The notes under the pieces were generated by a model, which saw nothing but the letters and a program-made list of their open reading frames with translations, was not told the origin of the DNA and ran no database searches. Of a stretch of 64,000 nucleotides of DNA, positions 2,044 to 25,840 are shown in pieces. The translations under genes were made by a program, and so were the position numbers. This DNA is from Nitrososphaerota archaeon (lineage in GTDB: Archaea; Thermoproteota; Nitrososphaeria; Nitrososphaerales; Nitrosopumilaceae): positions 1 through 64,000 of the forward strand of contig JAJPGU010000028.1 in assembly GCA_021325615.1 (NCBI GenBank), given 5' to 3'. The stretch's first letter is position 1; each line of letters starts with the position of its first letter.

Positions 2044-4125
2044 TTGCTTGTAATGGGGACTGTGACGCAGTTCTTGTCTGATCTTGAGTTAAACAAAACA
2101 CGTGGGCCTGTCTCATCGAGTTGCAGATACAGGACAGGAAGATACGTCATGGCAACTTTGTTATCCACATTGTCAGTGGTGCTAATATTGCACATGCCAG
2201 CCGTGATGGCTGAGGGAGAACCGGGTGTAATTGTTCCGCTATACAGCTATCCGGGAACAATGTGGGACAAACTCGTCGAGGAAAAAATTGCCCATCCCGA
2301 GGTGCCCATAATTGCTATTGTCAATCCTGATAGCGGACCGGGGACAAAGGACGGCAACTATATCGCAGGTATTCAAAAACTTGAGACCTCGGGAATAACG
2401 GTTTTGGGATATGTCTATACCCAGCATGTGGATGTGACCGAAATCAGAAACGATATCAACGAGTATAAAAATTGGTATGGAGTAAATGGAATCTTCTTTG
2501 ACGCCATGTCAAACACCCCGGGGAATGAAACCTTCTACAAGCAACTGACGTCCTATGTAAAATACATGGGGATGAATGTTACCGTGGGAAACCCTGGTGC
2601 TGACACACTTCCAAGCTATATTGGCACAGTTGACAACATTGTAATCCATGACAACAGCGGGTTTCCATCAGTTCTGATGCTTGGTGGCTGGCACGAGAAT
2701 TTCACAAAGTCGAACTTTTCTTCGATATCGTATGGCGTGGACAGCATAAACCAAACAGATGTAGCCGATTTAGCGCGGCATGTCCAGTACCTTTATGTGA
2801 CTGACTTGAACCTCCCAAATCCATTTGGTGCCCTTCCTAGCTACTTTGACAAGCTTATGGGCATGCTCGAAGTCCAAGGCGGTACAGCGTCCGTATCGGT
2901 AAATGCCTATTCTGAAAGCAACAAATCCCTGGGTGGATTCTGGACTATTGTAAAATCAAGCTCAAACACCACCACCGGATTTACGCCATTTGTCTTTAAC
3001 GCAACGGCGGGAGACCTGTATGCGGTGAGTGTTTCAAATTATGGAAACTACACGTTTGACCATTGGGACGATGGTTCAAAAAATAGCACCAGAATCATCC
3101 GGCCCTCGCAGAACGTGACCCTTACGGCGTATTATGAAACCAACCAGAACCAAACGCTTTTGTCAATCCCATCCAACCAATCCGCGGCGATTTCCAGCGG
3201 AAATCAGTCCCAACCCGCGCAAAAGGCCAATACCACATCCCAAGCATCGTTGGCAGGCAGCCCTGAAAATCTCGGACGTATACAAGCAACCGTGATGTAT
3301 ACCGGGGGAGACAGGGCAGACTATTCGCTTTTGTCTTTCAAGGTATTTCAGGACACCTCGCAGACACCTTATGAGGAGATAGGTTCCGTGTCAAGCAATC
3401 CCTTCTACATCGATAATCTTCCGCTGGGGCACCGGTACAAGGTGGAGGTCATGGCAAACGGGATGGTTTCGGACGTGGAATATGCAGACCTAGAAAAACC
3501 CACGGCACAAATGGGCCTGTACCTGCCATTCCCAGGGGGCATGAGGCTGCACATTTTTTACAACGATGGATACACCCCCATCTCGAATTCAGTAGTGACT
3601 GTAAAATCTCAGGACAACAAGACATGGGCGACTAGCACCACCGACCAATACGGGGAGACTCTTCGGTTTTGGCTAGAGCCGACAACAATGAAGAATAACT
3701 ACTTTATAATCGAAGTACAGATAGGGCGCCATCTCTCCTATTTTTCGAGCCCGGTGTTTCTGTATGCTGGACGGGGGCAAGAAATTAACATCGTTACGCC
3801 ATGGCCGCCCACAGTAGACAGTGCAATTGCGGTAAAAATTTACGATTCAGAGTCACAATTGTATACTCCAAAGGACGGCTCACTCATGGTGGGAGTCTAT
3901 GACAGTAACAATAACAAAATTGCCGAATCGGCGGTCAACCCAAGAGGGGAGGCTGATTTTGCAAACCTGAGGGTGGGAGACTATGTGATACGGGCAGTTG
4001 ATGAATCCAACGGATCCTTGTGGGGCCAATCCCAGATTACACTTGATGGCACCAAGACTGTATTTGATCTCTATGAAGCAAGGCAGGTCCCCGAAAATCA
4101 AACCGCGTCGCTTCTGGCAAACTAG
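2044..4125 (+). CDS. Secreted multidomain spherulin-4-like (GH135-type) protein
   Basis: A 693-residue protein. After a charged N-terminus there is a hydrophobic segment (about residues 36-56, ending AVMA) that looks like a signal peptide. The GH135-type barrel follows (about 60-285), then an Asn/Thr-rich beta domain with a DHWDDGS motif (about 285-375), a low-complexity NQ/S linker, and two or three beta-sandwich domains to the C-terminus (about 405-690). The expected acidic pair FF-D-E reads FFDA (D153, A154), and the third acidic position reads HD instead of YE. The barrel may therefore be inactive or act as a carbohydrate-binding surface protein. Many N-x-T/S sites fit a glycosylated cell-surface protein. 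The start is TTG at 2044; ATG at 2053 or 2149 are alternatives. Confidence 0.82.
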   Translation: MLVMGTVTQFLSDLELNKTRGPVSSSCRYRTGRYVMATLLSTLSVVLILHMPAVMAEGEPGVIVPLYSYPGTMWDKLVEEKIAHPEVPIIAIVNPDSGPGTKDGNYIAGIQKLETSGITVLGYVYTQHVDVTEIRNDINEYKNWYGVNGIFFDAMSNTPGNETFYKQLTSYVKYMGMNVTVGNPGADTLPSYIGTVDNIVIHDNSGFPSVLMLGGWHENFTKSNFSSISYGVDSINQTDVADLARHVQYLYVTDLNLPNPFGALPSYFDKLMGMLEVQGGTASVSVNAYSESNKSLGGFWTIVKSSSNTTTGFTPFVFNATAGDLYAVSVSNYGNYTFDHWDDGSKNSTRIIRPSQNVTLTAYYETNQNQTLLSIPSNQSAAISSGNQSQPAQKANTTSQASLAGSPENLGRIQATVMYTGGDRADYSLLSFKVFQDTSQTPYEEIGSVSSNPFYIDNLPLGHRYKVEVMANGMVSDVEYADLEKPTAQMGLYLPFPGGMRLHIFYNDGYTPISNSVVTVKSQDNKTWATSTTDQYGETLRFWLEPTTMKNNYFIIEVQIGRHLSYFSSPVFLYAGRGQEINIVTPWPPTVDSAIAVKIYDSESQLYTPKDGSLMVGVYDSNNNKIAESAVNPRGEADFANLRVGDYVIRAVDESNGSLWGQSQITLDGTKTVFDLYEARQVPENQTASLLAN

Positions 4126-7596: not shown

Positions 7597-8394
7597 TTGA
7601 ACAAAAAAACGATCCTGGCTTTTGCCATTATTGTGCTAGTCCTATCAGTATCTGCATTGCTTCTTTTCAAAGATGGTACCTTCGGAATGGCCGTTCATCC
7701 GCGGTTAAACGGAACGATGGAACTTGTTGTGATCCCATATTTTTCCCCTACCGACTCGCAGTGGCAGGCGATTTACGATGAGGCGCAAGAGTATCCTGGA
7801 ACAATCAAGTATGTCGTCATAAACCCATGCAGCGGTCCCTGCGGGGCGGCGCTTTCTTCAGATTGGGCGCAAGTCATTTCCTCACTAAGGGAGAGGGGGA
7901 TCAATACGCTCGGGTATGTCTATAACACAAACGAGAGCCTTGGTAATATCGACTACTACATGAAAGGGACCGGAGTCCATACGGATGGGATATTTTTTGA
8001 CAATGAAGGGAGCGAGAATGATGTGGGCAGTTTCCAGCAATATGCGGCATATGTGCACCATCTTGGTGGCATCGTGTACATAAACCCGGGATACAATTAC
8101 AGCTACGTCTCAAACTATCTGCTGTCCGGGGAGTCGGACGTTGCAAACATGTACGAGCTTGGGTATGGAGACTCGCACAAAATATCGGAAAACAAGGCCT
8201 TTTCCCCATGGAAAACGAGCGTGATTTTAGGAAATGTTACAAATCCCGAGGAGTTGCGGTCGGGGCTTTCGGAACTTGCGTCAAAGGGGATAGGAATATC
8301 GTATCTTTACGGGGATTCTTATGGTAGGTTGCCGAAATTTTTTTCAAGCGAGGTGGAGGAGGCGGCCGGAACATTCGTTAGGGACGGAAAATGA
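7597..8394 (+). CDS. Secreted or membrane-anchored spherulin-4-like (GH135-type) protein
   Basis: A 265-residue protein with an N-terminal hydrophobic segment (about residues 5-24), either a signal peptide or an uncleaved anchor, then a divergent spherulin-4 barrel: LVVIPYF near 43, INPCSGPCG near 75, GYVYNT near 106, GIFFDNEG near 131 and MYELGYGD near 185. The acidic pair reads D135-N136-E137, so the Glu is shifted or replaced, while the later YE (E187) is kept. It has extra cysteines in CSGPC. Expected role: hydrolysis or binding of a GalNAc-type polymer outside the cell. Start chosen as TTG 7597 because a TATA box is 26 bp upstream. It is divergent from gvpA and shares its promoter region. 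Confidence 0.8.
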   Translation: MNKKTILAFAIIVLVLSVSALLLFKDGTFGMAVHPRLNGTMELVVIPYFSPTDSQWQAIYDEAQEYPGTIKYVVINPCSGPCGAALSSDWAQVISSLRERGINTLGYVYNTNESLGNIDYYMKGTGVHTDGIFFDNEGSENDVGSFQQYAAYVHHLGGIVYINPGYNYSYVSNYLLSGESDVANMYELGYGDSHKISENKAFSPWKTSVILGNVTNPEELRSGLSELASKGIGISYLYGDSYGRLPKFFSSEVEEAAGTFVRDGK

Positions 8395-10590: not shown

Positions 10591-10687
10591 TGACTCAAAG
10601 TACCTGTTCAATATAAGAAAATATGGTTTCTGCTCCGTTAGATTATTCGTTTAGGGTGATGTGGTCCATATCATGTCGGACCGGGGG

Positions 10688-11037: not shown

Positions 11038-12798
11038 CTATTTTACTGTTACGGATTTTGCCAAGTTTCTTGGATAGTCGGGATCCGCATCTTTTTCTAT
11101 CGCCGCAAAATAGGCCAGGAGCTGGATTGGCACAATTTCAAGAAATGGGGAGAGCGGCTCCGCCACGTGAGGGATTCTTATCCAATGATCGTATATGTCG
11201 CTTTGCTTGTCTGAAATGCCGATAACCTTGGCTTTTCTTGCCTTGATTTCGTGAGCACTTGATAGTGTATCAAGATGGGTGGAATCGCTAGGATTTAGGA
11301 CAATTACGTACACGTTCGAGTCTACCAAGGCAAGAGGACCATGTTTCAATTCCCCGCCTGGTAGCCCTTCCGCATGGATGTAGGCAAGTTCCTTAATCTT
11401 TAGGGCTGCCTCAAGGGCTATGGGATAATGAATGCCGCGGCCTAGGACGTAAATATCTGAGGCGTTTTTAAGTTCCCTTGCAATTTCTTGGATCTGCCTC
11501 TGGGAGGCGATTGTTTCTACCATGTGGCCCGAAATCTCTGCAAAATCCGGCAAATTGAAATCTGTCGAGAGCCGGGCACACATTTTGTACAATATTGATA
11601 GTTGGGAGGTGAAACTTTTGGTGGCGGCCACGCCTATCTCGGGACCACAATTGAGTCCGACTGAATGCAGGGACTCTTGAACAAGCGATGATGTCATTAT
11701 GTTGACTATGGATGCGACTTTTGAGCCCCTCGATCTTGCAATTCTGACGGTCTCCATTACGTCTGCGCTCTCCCCGCTTTGAGACAGGGCTATGACGACT
11801 GACTGTTCGTCAAAATAATCGGGATAAAACCTCGATTCGCTAGAAATTATTGGTTCTATCCTCAGCTTCCCGTATTTTAAGAAAATGTGCTTGGCAACAA
11901 GGGCGGCATGGTAGCTGGTCCCGCTTCCTGTCAGGTACGCTGTTTTGGAAGTTCTCAAAAGGCCCACGATTTTATCCATCTCGTTTAGGTGGTTCTCCCC
12001 AGCCTTTACCATGGATTCTGGCTGGTCATTTATCTCCTTCAAGGTGAAATGGGCATAATCTCCCTTGTAAGCATCCGCAAATTCCTTTGAAACCTTGGTT
12101 ATATGGTGTCTCATGGGATTTCCCGAAAAATCAAAAAATTGCAGCCCGTTTGACCCTATTACTATGATTTCGCCATTGTCAGGATATATGACTTCGTCGG
12201 TATGCTCTGCAAATCCCAGCACATCGCTTGATACAAAATAACCCGTCTTTCCCAGCCCGATTACTAGGGGCTCGTGGAACCTTGCCGCTGCAAGGGTGCC
12301 GTCCTCAAATATTGCCACAAATGAATACTCTCCTTTTAGGGCAGCAACTGTCTCCATCATTGAAACTTTCACATCCTTGGTTCTGTCGTATACAAGCTGC
12401 AACATGTTGGATATGGCCTCACTGTCGGTCTCGCTCATGAATGTATATCCGACGCTTTGAAGTTTCTGCCTCAATTCAACGTAATTATCAATTATGCCAT
12501 TGTGCACAATGGCGACTTGACCCGTGCTTGATTTGTGAGGGTGTGCATTCTTGCTGGTGACCTCGCCATGTGTTGCCCATCTTGTGTGGCCTATGCCTAC
12601 ATGGCCGTCAAGGGCCTGCAGGCTTTGTGTTGCCTCGACCTCGGCAACCTTTCCAACGCCTTTTCTTACCTCGATCTTATCGTTATTGCTAATTGCAATT
12701 CCGACGCTATCATAACCTCTGTACTCCATGCGCTTCAAGCCCTTCACCAGAAGATGAGATGCAGCCGTGTTGCCTAGGTAGCCAATAATGGAACACAT
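11038..12798 (-). CDS. glmS: Glutamine-fructose-6-phosphate aminotransferase (isomerising)
   Basis: A 586-residue GlmS. It makes glucosamine 6-phosphate from fructose 6-phosphate and glutamine, the entry step to UDP-GlcNAc. The N-terminal glutaminase starts MCSIIGYLG with nucleophile Cys2 and has GIGHTRWATHG near 72. Two SIS sugar-isomerase domains follow (SGTSYHAALVAKH near 293; GRGIHYPIALEAALK near 453), and the end is the canonical NLAKSVTVK. It is full length. A TATA box (TTTATAATTT, near 12822-12831) lies about 28 bp upstream of ATG 12798. It is divergent from the polysaccharide operon starting at 12940 and could supply its amino-sugar precursor. Confidence 0.97.
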   Translation of the reverse strand: MCSIIGYLGNTAASHLLVKGLKRMEYRGYDSVGIAISNNDKIEVRKGVGKVAEVEATQSLQALDGHVGIGHTRWATHGEVTSKNAHPHKSSTGQVAIVHNGIIDNYVELRQKLQSVGYTFMSETDSEAISNMLQLVYDRTKDVKVSMMETVAALKGEYSFVAIFEDGTLAAARFHEPLVIGLGKTGYFVSSDVLGFAEHTDEVIYPDNGEIIVIGSNGLQFFDFSGNPMRHHITKVSKEFADAYKGDYAHFTLKEINDQPESMVKAGENHLNEMDKIVGLLRTSKTAYLTGSGTSYHAALVAKHIFLKYGKLRIEPIISSESRFYPDYFDEQSVVIALSQSGESADVMETVRIARSRGSKVASIVNIMTSSLVQESLHSVGLNCGPEIGVAATKSFTSQLSILYKMCARLSTDFNLPDFAEISGHMVETIASQRQIQEIARELKNASDIYVLGRGIHYPIALEAALKIKELAYIHAEGLPGGELKHGPLALVDSNVYVIVLNPSDSTHLDTLSSAHEIKARKAKVIGISDKQSDIYDHWIRIPHVAEPLSPFLEIVPIQLLAYFAAIEKDADPDYPRNLAKSVTVK

Positions 12799-12939: not shown

Positions 12940-13575
12940 ATGAAAAAAATTGAGACATGGATGGATAGGATAACCAATGAATCCAACCTCTGGCTAAATG
13001 CCGTTAAAATGGAGGATGAAGGCAACTATCTGGAAGCCTTTTCCTTTTACCTCAGGGACGCAGAGGGACACATGAAGCAAAATTCCTTTGTTAGGGCAGC
13101 TCTGAGTTGTTCTTGTGCCGCAGACTGCCTAGTAAAGACGGGGGCGCTTCCAGCGGCCCGCCAGCTGTACCATCAGGCGGCGACAATTTATGAAAAAAAT
13201 GGTCACTATGTGATAGGGAATTCCGTCCGAGAAGCGCTCTGGTCATATCAGGAGGCATATGAATACTATATCCTGGCTTACGAAAGGGACAGGGCCCAAA
13301 AGGTCTTCGATATATGCGTCTCGCTTGCAAGGAAGACGAATCCCTTTTCAGGTGAAAAGGAGGCGATGGACTCTCTCCGGCTGAGAACACTCGAGCTAGA
13401 GTCGAACAATTTAACGTACACGCCCAACATGCAAGTTTCTTCGGAAATAGACAATGCCATAGTTAACTTCCTCAAGGAAATGGAACCAAGGCAAGAGCCA
13501 CATGCGGCTCCTATTCTTAAGCGCATATTTGGCAACTTAGAGCGAAAACAGGATGAAAAAAGTATTAATTGTTAA
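12940..13575 (+). CDS. TPR-like protein, first gene of the Pel-like operon
   Basis: A 211-residue, all-helical protein with repeated pairs of helices of TPR/SNAP type: LEAFSFYLRDAEGHM, RAALSCSCAADCLVKTG, AARQLYHQAATIYEKNG and QEAYEYYILAYERD. No membrane segment. It overlaps the following glycosyltransferase gene by 23 bases, so the two are probably co-translated. Bacterial Pel systems also contain TPR proteins (PelE, PelB) that scaffold the synthase; an analogous role is possible but rests on position only. The ATG start is 24-30 bp after an A+T-rich TATA-like element at 12909-12917. Confidence 0.75.
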   Translation: MKKIETWMDRITNESNLWLNAVKMEDEGNYLEAFSFYLRDAEGHMKQNSFVRAALSCSCAADCLVKTGALPAARQLYHQAATIYEKNGHYVIGNSVREALWSYQEAYEYYILAYERDRAQKVFDICVSLARKTNPFSGEKEAMDSLRLRTLELESNNLTYTPNMQVSSEIDNAIVNFLKEMEPRQEPHAAPILKRIFGNLERKQDEKSINC

Positions 13576-15043
13576 CTGGGATGGATACCCAAACTTCCCG
13601 ACGGGCGGGATCTACACCTGGGAGAAGACACTCATCGAGTCTATGCCCAAATATGAATTCGTGGTGCTAAATGTCCTTTCAAACTCTAACAGCAACTCGC
13701 ATTATTCGGTTCCCAAGAACGTAAAGGTCATGGAAGTTCCAATTTTTGGGGCGACCAGATTTGAAGAATACTGCCCATACAAGTACAACCTGGCCTCCAA
13801 AATCTTCCGAACCACGGAGAAAGTCATTAAAAATAAATTCATGCCGCTTTACAGGGACTTTCTCGAATCGGTATTTTCAGACCACTGCGATACTGACAAA
13901 CTGGCGAACACCATAATTGCACTGCATGATCTCATGACAAACTACGACGCAAAAAGATTCCTCCAACACCCGATGACTTGGGACATTTACATGGAGGCTC
14001 TTAACCGTGAGCCTCTTTATCGAAATATAGCTTTTAAGGAGGCATTGACAACATATCAACTCCTTCAACGAAGCATACAACTCTTCTCAATTGAGGTGCC
14101 CGATGTGGACATCATCCATTGCTCCCTTGCATGGTTCCCATCGCTTGTGGCAGTTTATACCAAGAAGGCAAACAAGTGCCCCCTTATTGTGACGGAGCAC
14201 GGTGTCGCATATCGAGAATTGCTTTTGTTTTATAATGCCTTTATGTTTGACGAACCGTCGAAACTTTTCTGGAAGGTTGTCTCACATAATATTGTAAGGG
14301 TTGTTTATTCGGCCGCCGACGTGATTACCCCGGTATGCAAGGCAAATAAAAACTGGGAAGAAAAGCTTGGCGCGGATCCCTCAAAGATCAAGGTGATTTA
14401 CAACGGCGTCAATATAGAAAAATTCAAGCCCATGGATGTTGCAAGAGAGGACAGACGGCCTACCGTAGTTACAGTCGCTCGGGTAGACGCGTTCAAAGAC
14501 ATAGTCTGCCTGGTACAGGCAGTAAAGTATGCCAGGGAGCAGGTACCGGACCTCCAGTGCCTGATATATGGCACCTCCACAAACCTCGATTATTCCCTGA
14601 GGTGTATACGGGCAGTAAAGGATCTTCAACTGGAGGATGCCGTCAAGTTTATGGGAGGTACAAAGGAGCCGGAGAAGGCATACAATGCAGCAGACGCGGT
14701 AGTAATAAGCAGCATTACCGAGGGGTTCCCATTTACGATTATCGAAGCCATGGCCTGCGGAAAGGCAATCGCGGCCTCGGACGTGGGAGGGGTGAGGGAG
14801 GCACTGGAGGGATGCGGGATCCTTGTTCGCAGCAGGAGGCCAAGGGAACTGGGGCAGGCCATGGTGAATTTACTCCGGGATGATGCGCTGCGTAGAAAGT
14901 TTGAGAAGGCGTCCATTGAAAGGGTACACAGGGAATTTACACTTGAGAAATGCATAGAGAACTACAAAAAGGAGTATGATACTCTCATCTCGTCATACGC
15001 AGAGGGGATGGTAGGTGAACCCAAGGAGGCAATCCCGCAATGA
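13553..15043 (+). CDS. PelF-like family 4 glycosyltransferase
   Basis: A 496-residue GT-B glycosyltransferase. The N-terminal part (GGIYTWEKTLIESMP near 19-33, TEHGVAYRELL near 219, then AADVITPVCKAN near 259) matches the domain found in PelF, the soluble polymerase-type enzyme of Pel polysaccharide synthesis. The C-terminal GT4 domain has VTVARVDAFKD, SSITEGFPFTIIEAMACGK with the E-x7-E signature, and VGGVREALE. Likely donor: a UDP-hexosamine. It is soluble and would need a membrane partner, which the PelG-like gene two positions downstream could provide. ATG 13553 lies inside the TPR gene; the stop overlaps the epimerase start (ATGA). Confidence 0.8.
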   Translation: MKKVLIVNWDGYPNFPTGGIYTWEKTLIESMPKYEFVVLNVLSNSNSNSHYSVPKNVKVMEVPIFGATRFEEYCPYKYNLASKIFRTTEKVIKNKFMPLYRDFLESVFSDHCDTDKLANTIIALHDLMTNYDAKRFLQHPMTWDIYMEALNREPLYRNIAFKEALTTYQLLQRSIQLFSIEVPDVDIIHCSLAWFPSLVAVYTKKANKCPLIVTEHGVAYRELLLFYNAFMFDEPSKLFWKVVSHNIVRVVYSAADVITPVCKANKNWEEKLGADPSKIKVIYNGVNIEKFKPMDVAREDRRPTVVTVARVDAFKDIVCLVQAVKYAREQVPDLQCLIYGTSTNLDYSLRCIRAVKDLQLEDAVKFMGGTKEPEKAYNAADAVVISSITEGFPFTIIEAMACGKAIAASDVGGVREALEGCGILVRSRRPRELGQAMVNLLRDDALRRKFEKASIERVHREFTLEKCIENYKKEYDTLISSYAEGMVGEPKEAIPQ

Positions 15044-16014
15044 AAAATGGCTCTGTCGCGGTGGTGACAGGAGGTGCCGGATTCATAGGGAGCCATATAG
15101 CAGATGAGCTTGTTCGAAGGGGAATCGAGACCTATGTCATCGATGATCTTAGCACAGGCTCCCTTGACAATCTCAGGCAGCATGCGGGAAATGACCTGTT
15201 GCATTTTGTTCGCGGTGACGCAAGAAATATTGAAAAATTACTGACGGGCCTGGAAGCGATTGATGTCGTATTCCACGAGGCTGCAATTGCAAGCGTTCCT
15301 CGCTCGGTTTCCGAGCCGATGGTTGTCCACGATGCCAACGTCAACATGTCGCTTGAAGTCATGAATTTCTGCGTAAAAAAGAAGATAAGGAGGCTAGTCT
15401 TTGCGTCTTCGGCCGCCGTCTATGGGGTGATAAAAGACGGCCCCGCCTCAGAAGATCATCCATGCAAGCCTTATTCCCCATATGGTGCCTCGAAAATCGC
15501 CGTAGAGCATTACCTCAGCGCCTACTACCATACATATGGTTTGGAAACTGCGGCCTTGAGATATTTCAACGTGTTTGGCCCAAGGCAGGTTCTTAATGAC
15601 TACAGCGGTGTTATTACCATCTTCATAAACCAACTCCTAAAAAAGGAAACCCCGACAATTTTCGGTGATGGTCTTCAGACCAGAGACTTTGTACATGTAA
15701 ATGACATTGTCCAGGCAAATATGCTTTGCATGGAGTCTGAGAAAGCCAAGGGCGACGTATTCAACGTGGCAACTGGAAAACCTATCTCGATTCTGGATCT
15801 TCTCCTCGTCCTAAAATCGGTAACCAAGAATGATGAACTGCCCCACAGGTTTGGACCAATACGCTCCGGGGATGTCAAGTTTGGGACCGCGTCTGTTGAG
15901 AAAATAAAGAAGGTTCTCGGATTTGCTCCACGTGTCGATATTTCAAATGGGCTTGCCGGATTGGTTGAATACATAAAATCAAACCTTCCCATAAATGTCG
16001 TAAAGGAAGTATGA
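15040..16014 (+). CDS. UDP-hexose / UDP-N-acetylhexosamine 4-epimerase (GalE/WbpP type)
   Basis: A 324-residue extended short-chain dehydrogenase: NAD-binding GGAGFIGSH at 11-19, HEAAIASVPRSVSEP near 88, SSAAVYG, catalytic YGASK (Y-x3-K) near 151 and RYFNVFGPRQ near 174. The AAIASVPRS stretch resembles WbpP/Gne enzymes that interconvert UDP-GlcNAc and UDP-GalNAc. That assignment is plausible, since the neighbours resemble pelF and pelG and Pel contains GalNAc, but UDP-glucose epimerase or a related epimerase or dehydratase activity cannot be excluded. It is translationally coupled to the glycosyltransferase through an ATGA overlap, and its stop overlaps the Shine-Dalgarno sequence of the next gene. 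Confidence 0.85.
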   Translation: MKNGSVAVVTGGAGFIGSHIADELVRRGIETYVIDDLSTGSLDNLRQHAGNDLLHFVRGDARNIEKLLTGLEAIDVVFHEAAIASVPRSVSEPMVVHDANVNMSLEVMNFCVKKKIRRLVFASSAAVYGVIKDGPASEDHPCKPYSPYGASKIAVEHYLSAYYHTYGLETAALRYFNVFGPRQVLNDYSGVITIFINQLLKKETPTIFGDGLQTRDFVHVNDIVQANMLCMESEKAKGDVFNVATGKPISILDLLLVLKSVTKNDELPHRFGPIRSGDVKFGTASVEKIKKVLGFAPRVDISNGLAGLVEYIKSNLPINVVKEV

Positions 16015-16019
16015 GGTGA
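16013..16019 (+). promoter_or_regulatory. Strong Shine-Dalgarno sequence before the PelG-like gene
   Basis: GAGGTGA overlaps the epimerase stop codon and lies three bases before ATG 16023. It stands out because most first genes here look leaderless; internal genes of the operon use coupling or a ribosome-binding site. Confidence 0.6.
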
Positions 16020-16022
16020 AAA

Positions 16023-17663
16023 ATGACAACGCAGTCCTTGACAACCACCAGAGAATCGCGAATATTTGCCCAGAAAGTGGCACGATCTATAATCGAGGTG
16101 CAACCAAACATCAACAACACCGCAGACATAGTGGTTTTGCTTGAATGTCTGGGTTACAGAGTTGAAACCCTGCGCCAACATGGCTTTGAAGACTTTTACG
16201 CCTTGGCAAGACACCTGTACGAATTCATTGCCGTATATGAAACTCGGGAACAGAGCAACGATCTTTTCGTAAAATCTTTTACCATTGAAATGCCGAACAT
16301 CTCAAAACGCGTATCTGAAGGAGTAGGGTTAGTTTTTCCATGGCTAGGATCGCTTGCCCTCCTTTTCCTTACCGGGGTGTCCCTGTGGATGGCAATGGGC
16401 TTTCCTGCCTCGATTACCACGGCATTCGTCTCGGGGGTTTTCCTCGGGGTAGTTGTGACCGAGGGAACCCTCCAGGTATTCAATCGACTCTTCATGTTTT
16501 ATCACGAGCCTGGGAATATAGGTGAGGTAAAGCGACTCATAAGGCGGACATACTCCCTCATCGGGCTGGTCCTCCTTGTCGTCATGGGGATTGTATTTGC
16601 AATCGGGCAGTATGAAAAAATTCCTCTGCACCTAATCGAACTAACTATGATAAGTGCAGTAACTGTCTCGTTGCACAGGGCAAGTTACATGATTATCTAT
16701 ACTCTGAAAAAAGCAGCCACTCTGATAACCTCGTATTCATTGGCTTTTGCAATACTCCTGACTACATACTATTTCGGACAACCTCTTGTTCATGCCGAGG
16801 TAACTCGGTACTTCACCGGGCTATTGCTTGCGTTTGTTTCGCTTTCAGCATTCTCAGTCTATGAACACATCAAGCTGACAAAGACCATAAAGGAGACCTT
16901 GGTGGGGGACAAGCCGCACTTTTACAATCCTATGAGCAGGACTGACAAAACCCTCAAATCGAAATTCCGTGTGCAGCTCTGGGAGGCCGTACCCTATTCC
17001 TTGTATGGTGTTTTCTATGTGGTGACAATGTTTGGTGACAGGGTACTTTCTTGGATATACAACCCAGTAATCGGGCATGGGGGATACGTATTGCCAATGG
17101 CATTCAACGCCGTATATCACAGCGGCGCCGATATGGCATGGATTGTTCTTTTGCCAGGCTCGCTTATCCAGTATATCATGATGTCGCCCATCTATATCCA
17201 AATGAACAACATCAGCATCAAAATAAAGATTTCAGAATCCAAGGATCTTGACGCATTCATCTCTGCCACCTACAGGAAGGTTCTGATAATCTCAATTTCC
17301 GCATCTGTCATTACGGCTGTTCTTCTTAACGTTGTTGCACCGCCGCTGATGCTGCATGCCGGGCTTGCCATGACCAGTGTGCAGATCCTGAGGATTGCGT
17401 CGGTATCCAACGTCCTCATGTCGCTGTTCACAGTGAACAGCGTATTTTTGATGTGGATGAACAAGATTCGACATCTTGGAGTTTTGGTTATCGCCTCTGC
17501 CTTCTTGGTGATATCAACTGGCATCATGCTAGTGCATGGAGGAATTGAAAATCTAACCATCGGATACCTTGTTGGAGCCGCGTTTGCAGGGATCATTTCC
17601 CAAATTTATACCGCAAAGACGATAACCCGAGCATCCAGCATAGTCTTCTCAAAGATCGTCTGA
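16023..17663 (+). CDS. PelG-like polytopic membrane protein
   Basis: A 546-residue protein: a soluble N-terminal part (about 1-100) followed by about 11-12 membrane segments, including VFPWLGSLALLFLTGVSLW near 108, LIGLVLLVVMGIVFAIG, LAFAILLTTYYF and a C-terminal LGVLVIASAFLVISTGIML. The topology and the GDRVLSWI ... LLPGSLIQYI pattern resemble PelG, a Wzx/MOP-like inner-membrane protein that works with PelF to synthesise and export the polymer. Bacterial PelG is about 450 residues; the extra N-terminal domain is unusual. It would translocate the growing chain across the cytoplasmic membrane. Alternative: a different flippase-like protein. Last gene of the operon, convergent with the ATP-grasp gene 12 bases on. 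Confidence 0.7.
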   Translation: MTTQSLTTTRESRIFAQKVARSIIEVQPNINNTADIVVLLECLGYRVETLRQHGFEDFYALARHLYEFIAVYETREQSNDLFVKSFTIEMPNISKRVSEGVGLVFPWLGSLALLFLTGVSLWMAMGFPASITTAFVSGVFLGVVVTEGTLQVFNRLFMFYHEPGNIGEVKRLIRRTYSLIGLVLLVVMGIVFAIGQYEKIPLHLIELTMISAVTVSLHRASYMIIYTLKKAATLITSYSLAFAILLTTYYFGQPLVHAEVTRYFTGLLLAFVSLSAFSVYEHIKLTKTIKETLVGDKPHFYNPMSRTDKTLKSKFRVQLWEAVPYSLYGVFYVVTMFGDRVLSWIYNPVIGHGGYVLPMAFNAVYHSGADMAWIVLLPGSLIQYIMMSPIYIQMNNISIKIKISESKDLDAFISATYRKVLIISISASVITAVLLNVVAPPLMLHAGLAMTSVQILRIASVSNVLMSLFTVNSVFLMWMNKIRHLGVLVIASAFLVISTGIMLVHGGIENLTIGYLVGAAFAGIISQIYTAKTITRASSIVFSKIV

Positions 17664-17675
17664 TGGGAAATTGGC

Positions 17676-18737
17676 TCAGAAATAATTTGGGATGAAAGAG
17701 TTTGACACCTGGACGGACCTGTTGCGCTCGGTGTCCTCGTAGGTGGAATATGGTATGTATACCTCATTCAAATACCTCATGCAGACAAGCCTCTCATACT
17801 TGTTTTTCCTTGGCTCCTCCCTAAATACGACGTTTCGGAAAATAATGTCTGCCTCATTGATTCCGGCCACTGCCCTTAGGGGGGATGTCGCGGAAAATCT
17901 GGGATTTATCTCAAAGGTCTTAATGGTACCTCCGCTCATTTTCCCCTGTATGTTGATGGGTCCGCGGGCGCCAATCTGCAGTGCCGTTTCTTCTGCAACC
18001 TTGCGGACTTCCGCGTAATCGTCTATAAACGCCTTGTAGGTCTGGCCGCCCTTGAGGAATTTACGCATGGAAATTGATGACATTATTTTCCCAGAGGTGC
18101 TAATTGTTACACCAGAGGTAAATTCAGAATCCTCGCCATCCAGATATTCTTGTAGGAAGGGCCTCCATCCAGCTTTTGAAATAATGGAAATGGATGCCTC
18201 CAATTCGTCCTCATCGTGGGCCACGTAGAAATGCAACGATCCGTGCCCCTCCCGGGGCTTGACGACCACTGGAAATCCTGTCCTCCTGACAAATTTTACC
18301 CGGTCCTTCGGAAGGGCGGATTCGGCACATGGCAGTTTCCTTTGTTTCAGGAACCTGAATGTCTCCCACTTGTCGGTGGCGATGGATATTACATCGGGAG
18401 GGTTTGTTATCACCACTGCACCAGATTTGTTTTCAATATCGTCTTTTGCAAGGGCAAGAGGAAAAGTTTCCTCGTCAGATCCTACAAAAACGGCCCTTAT
18501 CTTTTTCTCTAGGCATAATTTTATGATGAAATCAAGGTAATCGGGAGATGTAACTGGAGGTACGAGGGCCCCAAAGTCTGCACGATAAAGCCCTGGAGCC
18601 CGTGGGCTCATGTCCGCTGCGACAATTTTGTATCTTCCATCTGTACCTGCCTGCTGGTTTGCAAGGTTGAGGCATTTCATTATTCCTTGGGCAACAATGC
18701 TTCCTGCAGATGTTACAAGGACATTTTGCGAGTCCAC
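17676..18737 (-). CDS. ATP-grasp enzyme (carbamoyl-phosphate-synthase-like)
   Basis: A 353-residue protein with an N-terminal Rossmann-like pre-ATP-grasp part (NVLVTSAGSIVAQGIMKCL), a central ATP-grasp fold (GFPVVVKPREGHGSLH near 154; FLQEYLDGEDSEF near 192) and the metal-binding FEINPRFSATSP near 277. ATP-grasp proteins of this kind join a carboxylate to an amine or thiol. The substrate is unknown; similar genes in glycan clusters modify sugars or link amino acids, but that is inference. GTG start at 18737 with an A+T-rich element about 26 bp upstream. It is convergent with the PelG-like gene and divergent from the GH135-type gene at 19006. Confidence 0.85.
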   Translation of the reverse strand: MDSQNVLVTSAGSIVAQGIMKCLNLANQQAGTDGRYKIVAADMSPRAPGLYRADFGALVPPVTSPDYLDFIIKLCLEKKIRAVFVGSDEETFPLALAKDDIENKSGAVVITNPPDVISIATDKWETFRFLKQRKLPCAESALPKDRVKFVRRTGFPVVVKPREGHGSLHFYVAHDEDELEASISIISKAGWRPFLQEYLDGEDSEFTSGVTISTSGKIMSSISMRKFLKGGQTYKAFIDDYAEVRKVAEETALQIGARGPINIQGKMSGGTIKTFEINPRFSATSPLRAVAGINEADIIFRNVVFREEPRKNKYERLVCMRYLNEVYIPYSTYEDTERNRSVQVSNSFIPNYF

Positions 18738-19005
18738 AATATGTTATTTGGTTCCTTGGTTTATCTGTTTTTTTAGAAATAAACTGTAATCATTCTATGT
18801 AATATTGTTCTATATTTTGATGAAAACTGGAACTCTGGTACATATTTGTCATTAGTAGATCGGGTAAAATTTCCGCGCTTGTGGAAAATACGACGCGATT
18901 TTTCAGATTTGTAATTTTTCAAAGATACGTGATCCGAAAGATGTTTGTCTTTTTTTGGATGAGCTCTCAGTTTTATTTTGTTATAGTAAATTGTTCTATA
19001 AGAAC
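18738..19005. promoter_or_regulatory. Divergent regulatory region with ATTGTTCTATA motifs
   Basis: This 268-bp gap separates the ATP-grasp gene from the GH135-type gene. ATTGTTCTATA occurs at 18803-18813. ATTGTTCTATAAGAACAT, an imperfect inverted repeat (GTTCT/AGAAC), spans 18990-19007 and runs into the ATG at 19006. TATA-like stretches lie at 18972-18988. The dyad sits where a bound repressor would cover the transcription start. Confidence 0.5.
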
Positions 19006-20724
19006 ATGTTAGAAAAATCAACAAGAACAATCACAGCAATTGCAGCAGCTCTGATACTTCTTTCGACACCATTGCTGGGCACCATGCCACACCAAGCACT
19101 TGCTACTTCTTCCACGGGGATCATAGTACCGTTGTACATGGATCCTGGTAGCTATTGGACACAGTTAATCCAAGTGAAGAACGCTCATCCGTCCGTTCCA
19201 ATCGTAGCAATCGCAAATCCTAACAACGGTCCTGGATCATCCATTGATTCAAACTACGTGAACGGGATTGCGCAGCTCCAATCGGCGGGGATAGTGGTCG
19301 TGGGATATGTGCACACGCTTTACGGGTCCAGAAGTACCACCACCTTGGAAACGGAGATGAACGAATGGCATAACTGGTATCACGTCACTGGAATTTTCTT
19401 TGACGAGATGGCAAATACTGCAGGTTACGAGTCATACTACTCAAACCTTTCAAGCTATGCGGCGTCTCACGGTATGGGATTCACAATAGGCAATCCCGGA
19501 ACCGATACGATTGCAAGTTATATGGGAACAGAGAGCAACCTATGCATTTACGAGGACGTGGGGCTTCCTTCTCTCTCAACGTTGGGAGGGTGGCACACCA
19601 GCTATCCTAAATCCGATTTCTGCATGATAGCGATAGGAGTAGGACTGCCGAGCCAGAGCTATGTTACCAGCGCCTCAAAATACGTGGGATACATCTATGC
19701 GACAAACGATAACCTGCCGAACCCGTATGACACACTGCCGTCTTACCTTGGCAGCCTGGCAGCAGAACTCGACACAGGCTCTTCATCGACCTCCGCACCT
19801 TCGTCACCAACAGGACTTTCAGCCACGGCAGTTTCCACCTCCGAAATCAATCTGAGCTGGAATGCACCCTCAAACAACGGGGGGACTGCAATAACTGGCT
19901 ACGAGGTTGACAGGTCTTCGGACGGGGGCTCTACTTGGTCGACAGTTGTACCAAACTCCGGTTCTACCAGTACGGCATATGCCGACAACGGGTTGTCTGC
20001 AGGAACGCAGTATGCCTACCGCGTATCTGCCATCAACTCAGTCGGAACTGGCACGCCATCTGCAATGTCATCTGCAACTACCCAGAGCGGTTCTGGAACG
20101 AATCCCCCTCCGTCTAACGGACTTTCCATAAATAATGTGAAATCAACATGGGGGGCCACCTCGTCAAACCAGATCACCCTTGCAAATTTCAACGCATCTG
20201 GAGGAAGCGACGGGCTTCTTGTAGTGGGCATTGGCGCCAACAACAACAATGTGGCATCGGTCACATTCGGCGGGGTTCCGCTGACAAAAGCAGTCTCTTC
20301 GTTTTACAACAACGATGCAGAATTCTGGTACCTGAAAAACCCAAGTGGAACTGCGAACATAGTGGTCACCACCGCGGGGGCCACCAAGATAGTAGTTGGA
20401 GCATATTCATTTGCTGGTGTGAATCAAACCAATCCGTTGCCGACCCATGTGGCAAGACACAACACGACTCTTAGCAGTCCAACTGTGTCAATTACCACGA
20501 AATATCCAAATGACATGGTGATTGATTTGCCATCGATCTGGGGAGGGGTGACGCTTGGTTCTAACACATGTGTGCAGGAATGGAACCACAACATATCAGG
20601 CGCAATAACAGGGGCATCTAGTTCGTTGATAGTATCTTCACCTGGAACCGTAAAATGCGGATGGACCGCAAGCAACGGTGACCAGTGGGATGACGTCGCA
20701 CTAGAAATTAGGGCGGATTCCTAA
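19006..20724 (+). CDS. Secreted spherulin-4-like (GH135-type) glycosidase with Fn3 and beta-sandwich domains
   Basis: 572 residues from ATG 19006. The signal peptide is clear (TAIAAALILLSTPLLG, cleavage near HQALA). The GH135-type barrel (about 36-260) keeps all three acidic positions: D133-E134 in IFFDEMAN and E183 in IYEDVG. It is therefore the copy most likely to be an active endo-alpha-1,4-N-acetylgalactosaminidase. A fibronectin type III domain follows (about 268-360, LSATAVSTSEINLSWNAP ... YAYRVSAIN), then a C-terminal beta-rich domain (about 370-572) that may bind carbohydrate or the cell surface. It lies next to the Pel-like operon, as hydrolases do in Pel and galactosaminogalactan loci. 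The start is chosen from the signal peptide and TATA spacing; upstream in-frame codons to 18955 would bury the promoter. Confidence 0.88.
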   Translation: MLEKSTRTITAIAAALILLSTPLLGTMPHQALATSSTGIIVPLYMDPGSYWTQLIQVKNAHPSVPIVAIANPNNGPGSSIDSNYVNGIAQLQSAGIVVVGYVHTLYGSRSTTTLETEMNEWHNWYHVTGIFFDEMANTAGYESYYSNLSSYAASHGMGFTIGNPGTDTIASYMGTESNLCIYEDVGLPSLSTLGGWHTSYPKSDFCMIAIGVGLPSQSYVTSASKYVGYIYATNDNLPNPYDTLPSYLGSLAAELDTGSSSTSAPSSPTGLSATAVSTSEINLSWNAPSNNGGTAITGYEVDRSSDGGSTWSTVVPNSGSTSTAYADNGLSAGTQYAYRVSAINSVGTGTPSAMSSATTQSGSGTNPPPSNGLSINNVKSTWGATSSNQITLANFNASGGSDGLLVVGIGANNNNVASVTFGGVPLTKAVSSFYNNDAEFWYLKNPSGTANIVVTTAGATKIVVGAYSFAGVNQTNPLPTHVARHNTTLSSPTVSITTKYPNDMVIDLPSIWGGVTLGSNTCVQEWNHNISGAITGASSSLIVSSPGTVKCGWTASNGDQWDDVALEIRADS

Positions 20725-20732
20725 AAGCCTTC

Positions 20733-21680
20733 CTACAATCCTTTTTTTATTTTTTTTATATGGGGCACCAGGTCCGTTGCGCCCGAGACCCATTTTAGCT
20801 GCTCTCCTGTTATGAACATGTATGATGGTTCGAATTTGGGGTATGCTTCCCCACAGGAAAAAATGGTCAGTACCATCCCACCGTGGTCTATCTTGTATCT
20901 TTGGCACGGCTCGTGACTCCTAACAATGACCTTGGTGCCAAAACTATCAAGGCAACTCCTCGAAACCGTCTCACCGAAATGTTTTCCGAAAAGTCTCCTT
21001 GATTTCTCAAACGGTACATCCCCCATGCTCCTGGGATCGCTCCATAATATTTCTTCTAGGACATCTTTCCTTGCCTGTAGCTCGGCTGCATTTGAGAGGT
21101 GGTGATCCTGCATGTATCTGGTCTCCGTGGGAGGACCGCCATGGACTAGGAAGAGCTTGTCGCCTACTATTGTAACTAGCGTAAGGAGTCGAAATAAATC
21201 CAGGACTTTATTGTAGGCTGGAGTTCCATGTTCGCCAAACCTCCCGGTAATTTCTGAAGGAAGGCCGTGGGATTGAAAGGGAAAATCCTCGGGAGCCTCA
21301 TGATTGCCACGCATGAGGATTACGACATCGGGATACCTGGATTTCAAATCGCATACCTTCTGAAGAACCTCTATGGATCCTGTCCCGCGGTCCACGTAAT
21401 CCCCCAAAAAAATTATTTTGTTCCTTGGATTTGAAAGAAATTCCTCATTCCTCATATCGCACAGAACCGAATCCAATGCTCCCATATCGCCGTGAAGATC
21501 GCCTACAACTAGTAGGTTTTCTGGAATTTCTAACCTTGTCAGCCCGTTTTTTATCCTCCCGCCTGCTATCTCTCCATTCATCCTCTCGTGTTCGATAGTC
21601 CTTCCTGCATTGATTATCGAGTTTTGAAACTCCATCCAGTTGGTTTGGAGGTAAGGTAGGCCAGAAGTCATTTCCCTCAT
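20733..21680 (-). CDS. PPP-family serine/threonine protein phosphatase
   Basis: A 315-residue metallophosphatase with all PPP signatures in order: GDLHGD near 62-67, GDYVDRG near 92-98, RGNHE near 126-130, and later histidines in LVHGGPP and RSHEP. These bind a dinuclear metal centre that hydrolyses phosphoserine or phosphothreonine, as in PP1/PP2A-type enzymes. Its start overlaps the stop of the TFB gene (ATGA, 21677-21680), which ties the phosphatase to a basal transcription factor. The 3' end is covered by a T-rich tract read as IKKIKKGL on this strand. It is convergent with the GH135-type gene. Confidence 0.93.
   Translation of the reverse strand: MREMTSGLPYLQTNWMEFQNSIINAGRTIEHERMNGEIAGGRIKNGLTRLEIPENLLVVGDLHGDMGALDSVLCDMRNEEFLSNPRNKIIFLGDYVDRGTGSIEVLQKVCDLKSRYPDVVILMRGNHEAPEDFPFQSHGLPSEITGRFGEHGTPAYNKVLDLFRLLTLVTIVGDKLFLVHGGPPTETRYMQDHHLSNAAELQARKDVLEEILWSDPRSMGDVPFEKSRRLFGKHFGETVSRSCLDSFGTKVIVRSHEPCQRYKIDHGGMVLTIFSCGEAYPKFEPSYMFITGEQLKWVSGATDLVPHIKKIKKGL
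20742..20759 (+). terminator. T-rich tract after the GH135-type gene
   Basis: Two runs of seven or eight T separated by one A follow the plus-strand stop at 20724 by about 17 bases. Oligo-T tracts terminate archaeal transcription. The tract lies within the 3' end of the convergent phosphatase gene. Confidence 0.5.
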
Positions 21681-22681
21681 GGGTTCACTTGCACAACTTG
21701 GACTTCCTTGCCCTTTTCGCTAGGGATTCTTGATTCCTTAGTATGATCGAGGGTCGCCTGTCCCTCCGTAGACCTTTCTCTCAACAATTTGTTGATTTCA
21801 AGGCACCTCTTACGGATGGTAATGGTCGTCAACTCCGCGGCTATTGCGACCCTCAGCTGGGTGGTGTGTTCTCCTACCTGCAGGGCAGCAAGGTAGAGGG
21901 CTGACGCGGCAAGTGATATTGGCTTTTTTCCTGAAAGTGTTGGCTCTCCTTCTACCTGTGAAAGGATTTCAAAGGCTCTTCTCTCAGTCTTGCCGCTTAG
22001 TTTTGCCCTTGCCGCTATCCTTGACAGGTATCTCGTCGGTTCTGGAGCCGTGACATTCATCTTCATACAGCGCAGCAAAAGCTTGTAATAATGTGTAACG
22101 TTTCTCCTGCTACAATTTTCCACCAGTACTTCCATCTGTTCCATGGGGAAATGGATTCCTGCATCTTTGCACGCTATGTATATGGTAGCTGCGACGATCC
22201 CAGTAATTGACCTGCCCCTTATGAGTTTCTGGTTCAGGGCCTTTCGATAGATGTAGCTTGCCCTTTCTGCTATTGAGGGACTCATGCCGAGGATTTCTGT
22301 TATGCGCAGGATCTCTTTTACCGCCTTTTTCAGATTCCTTGTCTTGGAATCGTTTGAAATGGCAAATTTATTCAACCTCCTTAATTTTTCAATATCGGCA
22401 TTGCCTTGGATTGCATTCCCATTGGCATCTATGTTTTTTTTGTCGATGAAGGTAGGCAGTCCGATATCGTACATCATGAGGGACGTGGGACTTTTGAGGC
22501 TCTCTCCTTCCATGGTGCTGAAAGACCCCGTATTGGAGTGTGAAAGATCATATGGTGATCCGCGGACCATGCCGCACCGGCTGCAAATTCTCTCACCCCG
22601 TTCTATATCTGAAACAAGTTTCCCCTTGCAGGCGGGACAAAAGTCCTCTTCTATCTCCGAGGCGTTGGTCTCGTGTGCCAT
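21677..22681 (-). CDS. tfb: Transcription initiation factor IIB (TFB)
   Basis: A 334-residue TFB. The N-terminal zinc ribbon C-P-A-C ... C-S-R-C (residues 15-36) recruits RNA polymerase, a B-reader/linker region follows, and two cyclin-like repeats (about 115-205 and 210-305) bind TBP-DNA; ARAKLSGKTERRAFEIL marks the second. A basic or polar tail of about 30 residues follows. Nitrososphaeria often encode several TFBs, so this may be a specialised one. TATA element TTTTAAAG at 22703-22710 lies 24-30 bp upstream of ATG 22681, implying a leaderless mRNA. It is in an operon with the overlapping PPP phosphatase. Confidence 0.95.
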   Translation of the reverse strand: MAHETNASEIEEDFCPACKGKLVSDIERGERICSRCGMVRGSPYDLSHSNTGSFSTMEGESLKSPTSLMMYDIGLPTFIDKKNIDANGNAIQGNADIEKLRRLNKFAISNDSKTRNLKKAVKEILRITEILGMSPSIAERASYIYRKALNQKLIRGRSITGIVAATIYIACKDAGIHFPMEQMEVLVENCSRRNVTHYYKLLLRCMKMNVTAPEPTRYLSRIAARAKLSGKTERRAFEILSQVEGEPTLSGKKPISLAASALYLAALQVGEHTTQLRVAIAAELTTITIRKRCLEINKLLRERSTEGQATLDHTKESRIPSEKGKEVQVVQVNP

Positions 22682-24104: not shown

Positions 24105-24818
24105 TTGTTGAAAGCAGTAGTTCACCAGCCTCAATATTTCCCGTATCCTGGATTTTTTCATAAACTTACCCTTGCCGATATTTACGTCGTTATGGACGAA
24201 ACACAATATGATAAAAGATTCACAAACAGGAATAAAATAATTTCAACCAATGGATGGATATGGATAACAGTCCCTATAAAAAAAGAACAGAAATTCCTCC
24301 CTAATGGAAAAGTGGAAATAAACAACGAGTTGTCATGGGGTGCCGAGCACTGGAAAAAGATCCATCAAGCCTATGCGAATGCACGTTATTTCGATTTGTA
24401 TTCACCATATCTGGAATCATTGTACTCTAAAGAATGGAATTTGCTGTTTGACCTTGATTTTGAGACAATAAAGAAGGTTATAGATTGGCTTGGCATCCAA
24501 ATCGAGATTGTCCGGGAATCGGAATTGGATGTCAAAGGAACCTCTACTGACAGATTAATTAGCGCTTGTAAAGCGGTGAATGCCGACACTTATGTCTCCG
24601 GAGGAGGGGGGAAAAATTATTTGGAGGAAAAATTATTTGAAAAAAATGGCCTGAAGCTTGAATATCAAAACTATGTGCCAAGCCCCTACAGGCAAAGACT
24701 TTCGAAATCCTTCATACCTGATCTCTCAGTGCTTGACCTTCTCTTTAATGCGGGTCCAGAGAGCGGGAAGATTATTGCAGGAGAGCGGATGGAAGCAATC
24801 CGAACTACCCTTTTTTAA
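24105..24818 (+). CDS. WbqC-like family protein
   Basis: A 237-residue protein of the WbqC-like family, found in O-antigen and other glycan clusters. The conserved start AVVHQPQYFPYPGFFHKL, the block VVMDETQYDKRFTNRNKI, and VSGGGGKNYL near 163 are visible. The biochemical role of the family is unclear; some members are linked to amino-sugar acylation or glycine transfer. Start TTG 24105 or TTG 24108; ATTATAA at 24078-24084 is 24-30 bp before 24108, so a leaderless TTG start is likely. The 3' end overlaps the convergent winged-helix gene. Confidence 0.85.
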   Translation: MLKAVVHQPQYFPYPGFFHKLTLADIYVVMDETQYDKRFTNRNKIISTNGWIWITVPIKKEQKFLPNGKVEINNELSWGAEHWKKIHQAYANARYFDLYSPYLESLYSKEWNLLFDLDFETIKKVIDWLGIQIEIVRESELDVKGTSTDRLISACKAVNADTYVSGGGGKNYLEEKLFEKNGLKLEYQNYVPSPYRQRLSKSFIPDLSVLDLLFNAGPESGKIIAGERMEAIRTTLF

Positions 24819-25110
24819 ATATGTTTTCCAACTGCCTGTAAGCACTCATGTATCTTTCACCCATTTGGGTTGTCCTAAAAATCGGCCGCTTGGATGCGGG
24901 ATTGTCTTTAAAACTTTCAATTAGCCTGTGAGCCTGCAGAAACTGCAGATATTGGGCTATTTGTTTTGAATTGAGATTGCATTTGTACATGATGTGGGTT
25001 TTCAAGGCACCCTTTTCGCAAACTTCGAGTATGATCTCTACTATCTCTACCCATCCGCGGTTTCCCCAGCCCATTACGCTTTGTTCCGAATAAATGTCTG
25101 TATGAGGCAT
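24805..25110 (-). CDS. Small winged-helix DNA-binding protein
   Basis: 101 residues. After a short leader it reads VMGWGNRGWVEIVEIILEVCEKGALKTHIMYKCNLNSKQ in pieces matching the protein at 41643-41948, one of a third winged-helix subfamily in the window (IMYK-x-x-L-S/N-x-x-Q is shared with all). It probably regulates transcription; the target is unknown. The gene overlaps the WbqC-like gene at its 3' end and lies downstream of, and in line with, the PIG-L gene. The ATG at 25110 is used; ATG 25074 is an alternative. Confidence 0.78.
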   Translation of the reverse strand: MPHTDIYSEQSVMGWGNRGWVEIVEIILEVCEKGALKTHIMYKCNLNSKQIAQYLQFLQAHRLIESFKDNPASKRPIFRTTQMGERYMSAYRQLENIFKKG

Positions 25111-25141
25111 ATGCTAGTAAAAAATAAAAAAATGGCCTCTT

Positions 25142-25840
25142 TCACACGAATTCCAAGACTTCATTGAGATTGCTTATCTGTTCAGTGTTCTTGATCTTCT
25201 CGTAGGGAATGGTCAACAACTTGAAATTCTTGTCAAAACATATCTTTAGAACCTCGAATGCTTCGGCGTATTTTACTCCGGTGTTGAGCCTGCTTTGCAA
25301 GGCTCGATATTCTGCCAACCCCTTAATCGCATTGGCCTTGAGGTAAAGTTTGTTTTGCTGAGACCAAAAAATTTCTATCAATTCAACCTTTTCATAAACG
25401 ACATCGGATATGTCATAAAATATTTTAGGGTCAAAATGCCTTGTAAGGGGGATTTCGTAGGAAAGTACGTTGGAGTTGAACCTGGCAGCTTCTATTGTTG
25501 CCGCCGCGATAGCCCTGTGGTCATGATGTATGTCTCCCTGCGAATGAGTGAGAATGAGATCGGGGTTTGATTGATTTATGAAATGCTCTATATGATTAAT
25601 CAGGTCGCTAGTAACCCCAAGCTTCGAGTCCTCAAAATTGTCTATCCAAAGGTGTCTTGCCCCGATAAATTGGGCAGATCGCCTCAATTCCTCGCTTCTT
25701 GCCTTTGGATCGCCCGAAGCGCTTCCTCGGGTTAGGGTATACATGTATACCTCGTGGCCCTCCCTTGCAGCCTTTATCAGCATCCCGCCGCAACCCAACT
25801 CTATGTCATCTGGATGAGCTCCTATGGCTAGTATTTTCAC
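25142..25840 (-). CDS. PIG-L / LmbE family N-acetylglucosamine-type deacetylase
   Basis: A 232-residue zinc deacetylase: A-H-P-D-D-I-E-L-G at 8-16 and H-H-D-H-R near 108-112 supply the zinc ligands and base. Family members remove acetyl groups from GlcNAc in small glycoconjugates (PIG-L, MshB, BshB). Here the substrate is unknown; with GlmS, the epimerase and WbqC-like genes nearby, an amino-sugar derivative is likely. Intracellular, no signal peptide. ATG start at 25840; it precedes the winged-helix gene on the same strand by about 30 bases. Confidence 0.88.
   Translation of the reverse strand: MKILAIGAHPDDIELGCGGMLIKAAREGHEVYMYTLTRGSASGDPKARSEELRRSAQFIGARHLWIDNFEDSKLGVTSDLINHIEHFINQSNPDLILTHSQGDIHHDHRAIAAATIEAARFNSNVLSYEIPLTRHFDPKIFYDISDVVYEKVELIEIFWSQQNKLYLKANAIKGLAEYRALQSRLNTGVKYAEAFEVLKICFDKNFKLLTIPYEKIKNTEQISNLNEVLEFV

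Follow-up and report, generated by a model that had tools for sequence, protein, structure and literature searches.

Can an archaeon make, export, and trim its own galactosamine polymer with only part of the machinery that bacteria use for Pel polysaccharide? This question is raised by a locus in a 64,000-nucleotide stretch of DNA, hereafter the window, from a Nitrososphaerota archaeon of the family Nitrosopumilaceae (assembly GCA_021325615.1, contig JAJPGU010000028.1, positions 1 to 64,000 of the forward strand). A first-pass annotation had described a TPR gene, a PelF-like GT4 glycosyltransferase, a UDP-N-acetylhexosamine (UDP-HexNAc) epimerase, and a PelG-like membrane protein, near a divergent glmS and a secreted spherulin-4 protein, and had read them as a reduced Pel machine for a polymer of N-acetylgalactosamine (GalNAc) or N-acetylglucosamine (GlcNAc). 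A check of the open reading frames (ORFs) in the window confirmed the coordinates of all ORFs of the locus (Table 1). Our analysis indicates that the locus is a PelFG-type system, not a full Pel operon, and that it is probably a chromosomal archaeal operon for a secreted alpha-GalNAc-type polymer. The PelF assignment, the relation to PelG, the epimerase, and the GH135 hydrolase of the earlier proposal were borne out, and a PelE role for the TPR protein was not.

The glycosyltransferase is the most firmly placed member of the locus. The protein encoded at 13553-15043 matched the NCBIfam PelF equivalog NF038011 with 152.6 bits over residues 15-475 (cut-off, 100 bits), and the DUF3492 N-terminal domain expected of PelF was found by PF11997 (112 bits). 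Thus, the enzyme is PelF-like, as first proposed. The EX7E motif is present as EGFPFTIIE (TEGFPFTIIEAM). In a PelF tree with small taxon sampling and plasmid-only bacterial taxa, the archaeal proteins form one group (100/100) that joins the Deinococcus/Actinobacteria type (93/84) and stands apart from PelD-type loci. This PelF is predicted to polymerize UDP-GalNAc. The adjoining epimerase is GalE-like by PF01370 and carries the motifs GGAGFIG (GxxGxxG) and YGASK (YxxxK). Its best solved relatives are 6wjb/6wj9 and 6dnt, followed by 1sb8 (WbpP) and other 4-epimerases including WbgU, which agrees with the predicted UDP-HexNAc specificity. We take 6wj9-6wjb to be PelX, the UDP-GlcNAc C4-epimerase of P. 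protegens. PelX has been described as critical for Pel (PMC9135694).

The polytopic protein was assigned through its relatives. PF16933 (PelG; cut-off, 29 bits) was matched by eight of the ten archaeal homologues scanned, and the cut-off was passed in three genomes (G121, G072, and G156) by homologues that are 37-47% identical to the window protein. Profile-profile comparison with canonical PelG by hhalign aligned 397 columns (E 1e-4, probability 55%), and in the PelG profile alignment the archaeal invariant DR..SW falls on the bacterial DK..FW. An AlphaFold (AF2) model of the protein (pLDDT 78) matched transporters of the MOP superfamily in Foldseek (E 2e-6), including MATE, MurJ, and WzxE, and the predicted fold is that of a MOP-superfamily flippase. 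Accordingly, the first-pass PelG assignment stands by way of the homologues, the profiles, and the fold, although not by a library match of the window protein itself, and the MOP fold together with the similarity to PelG speaks against an unrelated transporter family. The protein also has an extra soluble N-terminal domain of ∼100 residues that is absent from canonical PelG and matches the polytopic pelF partner of Deinococcus, Streptomyces, Thermus, and Kocuria (E 4e-4, with a modest probability of 37%). No match of the Deinococcus/Actinobacteria partner proteins to canonical PelG was detectable by comparison. A PF16933 match in another genome, G036, was discarded; its gene context (L031) is unrelated to the locus.

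The arrangement of the genes is that of an operon. The TPR and GT4 ORFs share 23 bp, the GT4/epimerase junction is an ATGA overlap, and GAGGTG lies directly upstream of the ATG of the PelG-like gene. Searching genome contigs with a single PelG sequence gave zero matches, and searching with a PelG alignment gave 21 loci, every one in Nitrososphaeria. The order TPR-pelF-epimerase-pelG was found in 20 of the 20 named loci not ended by a contig edge; the 21st (L084) starts inside pelF and was left out, and pelF of L072 is split into two ORFs. In G156 the epimerase precedes pelF. An ATP-grasp gene lies convergently downstream of pelG in most loci and is conserved as part of the block. Two more families within the order (f4 and f20) have the module as well, with glmS, KaiC-like, PIG-L, or WbqC genes nearby. 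Because the same gene block is present in dozens of genomes, a chance arrangement is excluded, and the conservation of gene order that the first-pass annotation left to be surveyed is clear. The genome has two full-length copies of glmS, one at the locus and another on contig C6; glmS and the TPR gene are divergently arranged in Nitrosotalea loci and in L024, L083, and L130.

The hydrolase beside the operon suggests what kind of polymer is made. The Spherulin4 protein encoded at 19006 keeps all three catalytic-site residues (FFDE...E; Asp/Glu/Glu), aligns to the Sph3 structure 5c5g, and is predicted to be a GH135 enzyme of the endo-alpha-1,4-N-acetylgalactosaminidase type. The polymer that Sph3 specifically cleaves is acetylated poly-GalNAc (PMC9135694). 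Among 200 genomes of the class, PelF over the cut-off and a PelG homologue select the identical 10 genomes, all of which are among the 12 that encode Spherulin4. The set of 400 genomes from the order contains 36 with PelG and 43 with Spherulin4; Spherulin4 is present in 36/36 PelG-positive and 7/364 PelG-negative genomes (p 1.3e-44, uncorrected for shared ancestry, as are the p values that follow). Restricting the comparison to the genus leaves the association in place (14/14 PelG-positive against 1/19 PelG-negative genomes, p 1.8e-8), as does excluding the genus (p 3e-30), and several genera, belonging to four families, show the pattern. The distance from pelG to a Spherulin4 gene is at most 2.5 kb in 19 of the 36 genomes. 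In Nitrososphaera the two genes are unlinked yet both present, so that the signal is not due to linkage alone. The signal peptide and the PF12138 match mark the 19006 protein as a secreted GH135-type hydrolase, and co-occurrence and adjacency tie such hydrolases to the locus, as first proposed. Since every PelFG genome searched encodes a family that cuts such a polymer, these data suggest that a galactosamine polymer is both produced and trimmed by the archaea themselves. Another Spherulin4 protein of the window, at 799-1548, has no evident signal peptide and is possibly cytoplasmic.

The strongest alternative is that a lipid-linked oligosaccharide, destined for N-glycosylation or S-layer decoration, is synthesized and flipped by PelF, the epimerase, and the MOP protein, the last acting as a Wzx/MurJ-like flippase, and that no free polymer is formed. 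The MATE, MurJ, and WzxE matches and the missing direct PF16933 match of the window protein are what this explanation would lead one to see. However, the score of the glycosyltransferase is above the cut-off of the PelF equivalog, the operon contains no other glycosyltransferase, and the co-occurring endo-acting GH135 needs a polymer as substrate; we regard this alternative as unlikely. Somewhat less likely still is that Spherulin4 attacks fungal galactosaminogalactan (GAG) or bacterial Pel, for food or in competition, and that it lies close to PelFG by chance or as part of a general glycan island. Such a role agrees with the published interpretation of GH135 in Gagatemarchaeaceae as fungal-wall degradation (PMC10640624), with the multiple secreted copies, and with the few genomes that have Spherulin4 without PelG. 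It is opposed by the 36/36 against 7/364 co-occurrence with a biosynthesis gene, which persists when the genes are unlinked, by the adjacency of Spherulin4 in most genomes, and by the bacteria that likewise put Spherulin4 in pelF operons; the PelG/Spherulin4 linkage argues against the fungal-wall reading of archaeal GH135. Finally, a bacillithiol-like pathway to a hexosamine-based metabolite, with the GT4 as BshA, PIG-L as BshB, and a BshC/WbqC-type ligase, would account for a PIG-L orthologue that co-occurs with the locus and adjoins WbqC in Nitrosotalea and a BshC-like protein in Nitrososphaera, but it is very improbable given that the GT4 reaches only 86.6 bits against the BshA profile (cut-off, 273.7) yet passes that of PelF, and that PelG and Spherulin4 are left unexplained.

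For the polymer operon that we favor, the following route can be proposed. A dedicated GlmS copy and housekeeping enzymes would supply UDP-GlcNAc, which the epimerase would convert to UDP-GalNAc. PelF, held by the soluble TPR protein, would polymerize UDP-GalNAc in the cytoplasm, and the chain would cross the single archaeal membrane by way of the MOP-type PelG. As it emerges, the acetylated chain would be cut by secreted Spherulin4/GH135 enzymes, which most genomes encode beside the operon, and this would set its length or release it. The family identities, the operon, the conserved synteny, and the co-occurrence are seen in the sequences themselves; we infer the sugar (GalNAc rather than GlcNAc), the linkage, the direction of transport, the role of the TPR protein, and a function in aggregation or biofilm.

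The first gene of the operon does not encode a recognizable PelE. Compared by hhalign with three proteins taken as PelE from their position between pelD and pelF, the TPR protein aligned over only 14 columns (E 0.043). It has zero predicted transmembrane segments, and its AF2 model (pLDDT 80) is all-helical, with SNAP-like TPR proteins as the nearest folds. PelE was therefore rejected, and a scaffold of the synthase is the likely role. In G156 a second paralogue of the TPR protein lies beside the locus, adjoining another epimerase-family gene (L030 12924-13460). Library scans found no PelA, PelD, or PelB/C-like genes in the locus (PelD and PelA domains were not searched genome-wide), which agrees with the machine lacking PelA, B, C, and D that had been proposed; Spherulin4 could replace the hydrolase half of PelA.

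The state of acetylation can also be predicted. A genome search for CE4 deacetylases found none, other deacetylase families remaining possible, and the only linked candidate is the PIG-L protein, which has no signal peptide. With no secreted deacetylase detected, we predict a polymer that is still largely acetylated outside the cell, which fits the preference of Sph3. Within the 200-genome set, the 10 genomes with PelFG, and no others, have a PIG-L orthologue with at least 67% identity; weaker ones (53-61% identity) occur in five more. The neighbor of PIG-L is a BshC-like protein in Nitrososphaera and WbqC in Nitrosotalea, and both neighbors have an HQP motif (L025 4231-5916, L028 3640-5292). 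It is conceivable, though doubtful, that PIG-L, the WbqC/BshC-like protein, and the ATP-grasp protein remove or replace the N-acetyl group of the hexosamine precursor before polymerization, giving an N-modified polygalactosamine with no extracellular deacetylase. To our knowledge, no such route has been described for Pel or GAG.

Several observations weigh against a secreted GalNAc polymer. The window PelG-like protein falls below every library threshold, and a direct Pfam/NCBIfam search gives no match. Membership in the GT4 and short-chain dehydrogenase/reductase families, read from sequence, fixes neither sugar nor linkage. Two Spherulin4 copies of the window (799 and 2044) have altered catalytic residues, and the seven PelG-negative genomes that carry Spherulin4, some of them incomplete metagenome-assembled genomes, indicate that it can exist alone. 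The co-occurrence tests are uncorrected for shared ancestry, the bacterial comparison covers plasmid-borne loci only, and the PIG-L, WbqC, and ATP-grasp genes suggest a modified hexosamine that the proposed route leaves unexplained.

The locus has features in common with three known kinds of system and differs from each. Like bacterial Pel (pelABCDEFG; in Gram-positives pelDEA(DA)FG), it has the PelF and PelG core, a 4-epimerase, and a predicted alpha-galactosaminidase, and glmS or galE is sometimes linked in bacteria, as in a Paraburkholderia pel locus that contains both. It differs in its archaeal host, in having no PelD and no recognizable PelE, PelA, PelB, or PelC in the locus, in a strongly diverged PelG with an N-terminal domain, and in hydrolases that are separate GH135 proteins. 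In the plasmid collection from which the bacterial loci were drawn, the nearest PelF proteins are those of Deinococcus, Streptomyces, Thermus, and Kocuria. The Deinococcus/Streptomyces/Kocuria loci (L086, L087, L090, L091, L122, and L124) share with the archaeal locus the homologous partner N-terminal domain, an epimerase in several cases, Spherulin4 and/or GH114 alongside, and the lack of PelD. In contrast, they have no TPR first gene, their order is pelF-partner-epimerase, and the partner is not named PelG in any library. Spherulin4 genes were found in the Streptomyces and Kocuria pelF loci, and those of Streptomyces, Deinococcus, and Thermus contain genes named endo alpha-1,4 polygalactosaminidase (GH114 confirmed where scanned). 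The locus of Deinococcus sp. QL22 differs further in an additional Agd3-like protein with CBM87 and deacetylase domains (L086 14940-17090), which gives a bacterial plasmid a GAG-like set of genes. The fungal GAG cluster (Uge3, Gtb3, Agd3, Sph3, and Ega3) likewise sets a UDP-HexNAc epimerase and an Sph3/GH135 hydrolase beside the synthase; however, the archaeal synthase of PelF GT4 and PelG is unrelated to Gtb3, and neither Gtb3, Agd3, nor Ega3 was among the Pfam matches of the locus proteins.

In the literature searched, from which subscription journals were largely absent, we found no description of archaeal Pel genes and no work joining spherulin-4, GH135, and archaea. Two Pel surveys are silent on archaea, and gene-content work on ammonia-oxidizing archaea treats extracellular polymeric substance genes in general terms only. 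If our reading is correct, Pel/GAG-type polygalactosamine, known from bacteria and fungi, extends to archaea, and ammonia-oxidizing soil archaea gain a named, testable candidate matrix polymer. Archaeal GH135 enzymes would be recast from degraders of fungal walls to processors of the cell's own polymer, and PelF, PelG, and the TPR protein would form a minimal synthase without PelD and its cyclic di-GMP control. PelFG may also occur in archaea outside the class. A genome from a distant family of the phylum, G467, has a pelF whose product is 36% identical to that of the window; it adjoins genes for a PelG-like protein of 511 aa and for another PelF-like GT4 (L127 2501-5523).

Table 1. Genes of the PelFG-type locus and its surroundings in the window
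Feature	Position	Strand	Basis or remark
glmS, glutamine-fructose-6-phosphate transaminase	11038..12798	-	NCBIfam glmS 616 bits; divergent from TPR gene
Soluble TPR/alpha-solenoid protein, first gene of operon	12940..13575	+	Weak SNAP/TPR Pfam matches
PelF-type GT4 glycosyltransferase, DUF3492 N-terminal domain	13553..15043	+	NF038011, PF11997, EX7E motif
NAD-dependent UDP-sugar 4-epimerase, UDP-HexNAc C4-epimerase type	15040..16014	+	PF01370, PDB relatives
PelG-like MOP-superfamily membrane protein (predicted)	16023..17663	+	Homologues pass PF16933; profile-profile; fold
ATP-grasp protein, PRK12767 family, convergent	17676..18737	-	NCBIfam 312.7 bits, cut-off 218
Secreted Spherulin4 (GH135) with fn3 domain	19006..20724 (ORF from 18955/19006)	+	PF12138 142.6 bits; signal peptide
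Spherulin4 protein, no evident signal peptide	799..1548	+	Third catalytic Glu to Asp
Spherulin4 protein, secreted, altered active site	2044..4125	+	FFDA, E to D
Divergent Spherulin4 protein, N-terminal anchor/signal	7597..8394	+	Library scan and signal prediction
WbqC-family protein, PIG-L neighbor	24105..24818	+	PF08889 232.6 bits; recurs with PIG-L
PIG-L/LmbE-type N-deacetylase, no signal peptide	25142..25840	-	PF02585 91.7 bits
TFB (TFIIB) paralogue flanking locus	21677..22681	-	PF00382; family F9 in 6 compared loci; also Nitrososphaera loci

The ATP-grasp gene, three further Spherulin4 genes, the PIG-L/WbqC pair (24105-25840), and the second glmS go beyond the first-pass annotation. A calcineurin-like phosphatase gene and the TFB paralogue (20733-22681, - strand) flank the locus in Nitrosotalea and Nitrososphaera genomes (L025, L028, and L029); they are possibly a dedicated regulatory pair, with the TFB paralogue as a dedicated regulator. 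Genes for a GvpF/L gas-vesicle protein (5499-6230, - strand) and a KaiC/GvpD-like ATPase (9166-10611, - strand) lie near the locus, and in the distant genome G253 an ORF judged by eye to be GvpF/L-like is also found near the locus (L129 3162-3896).

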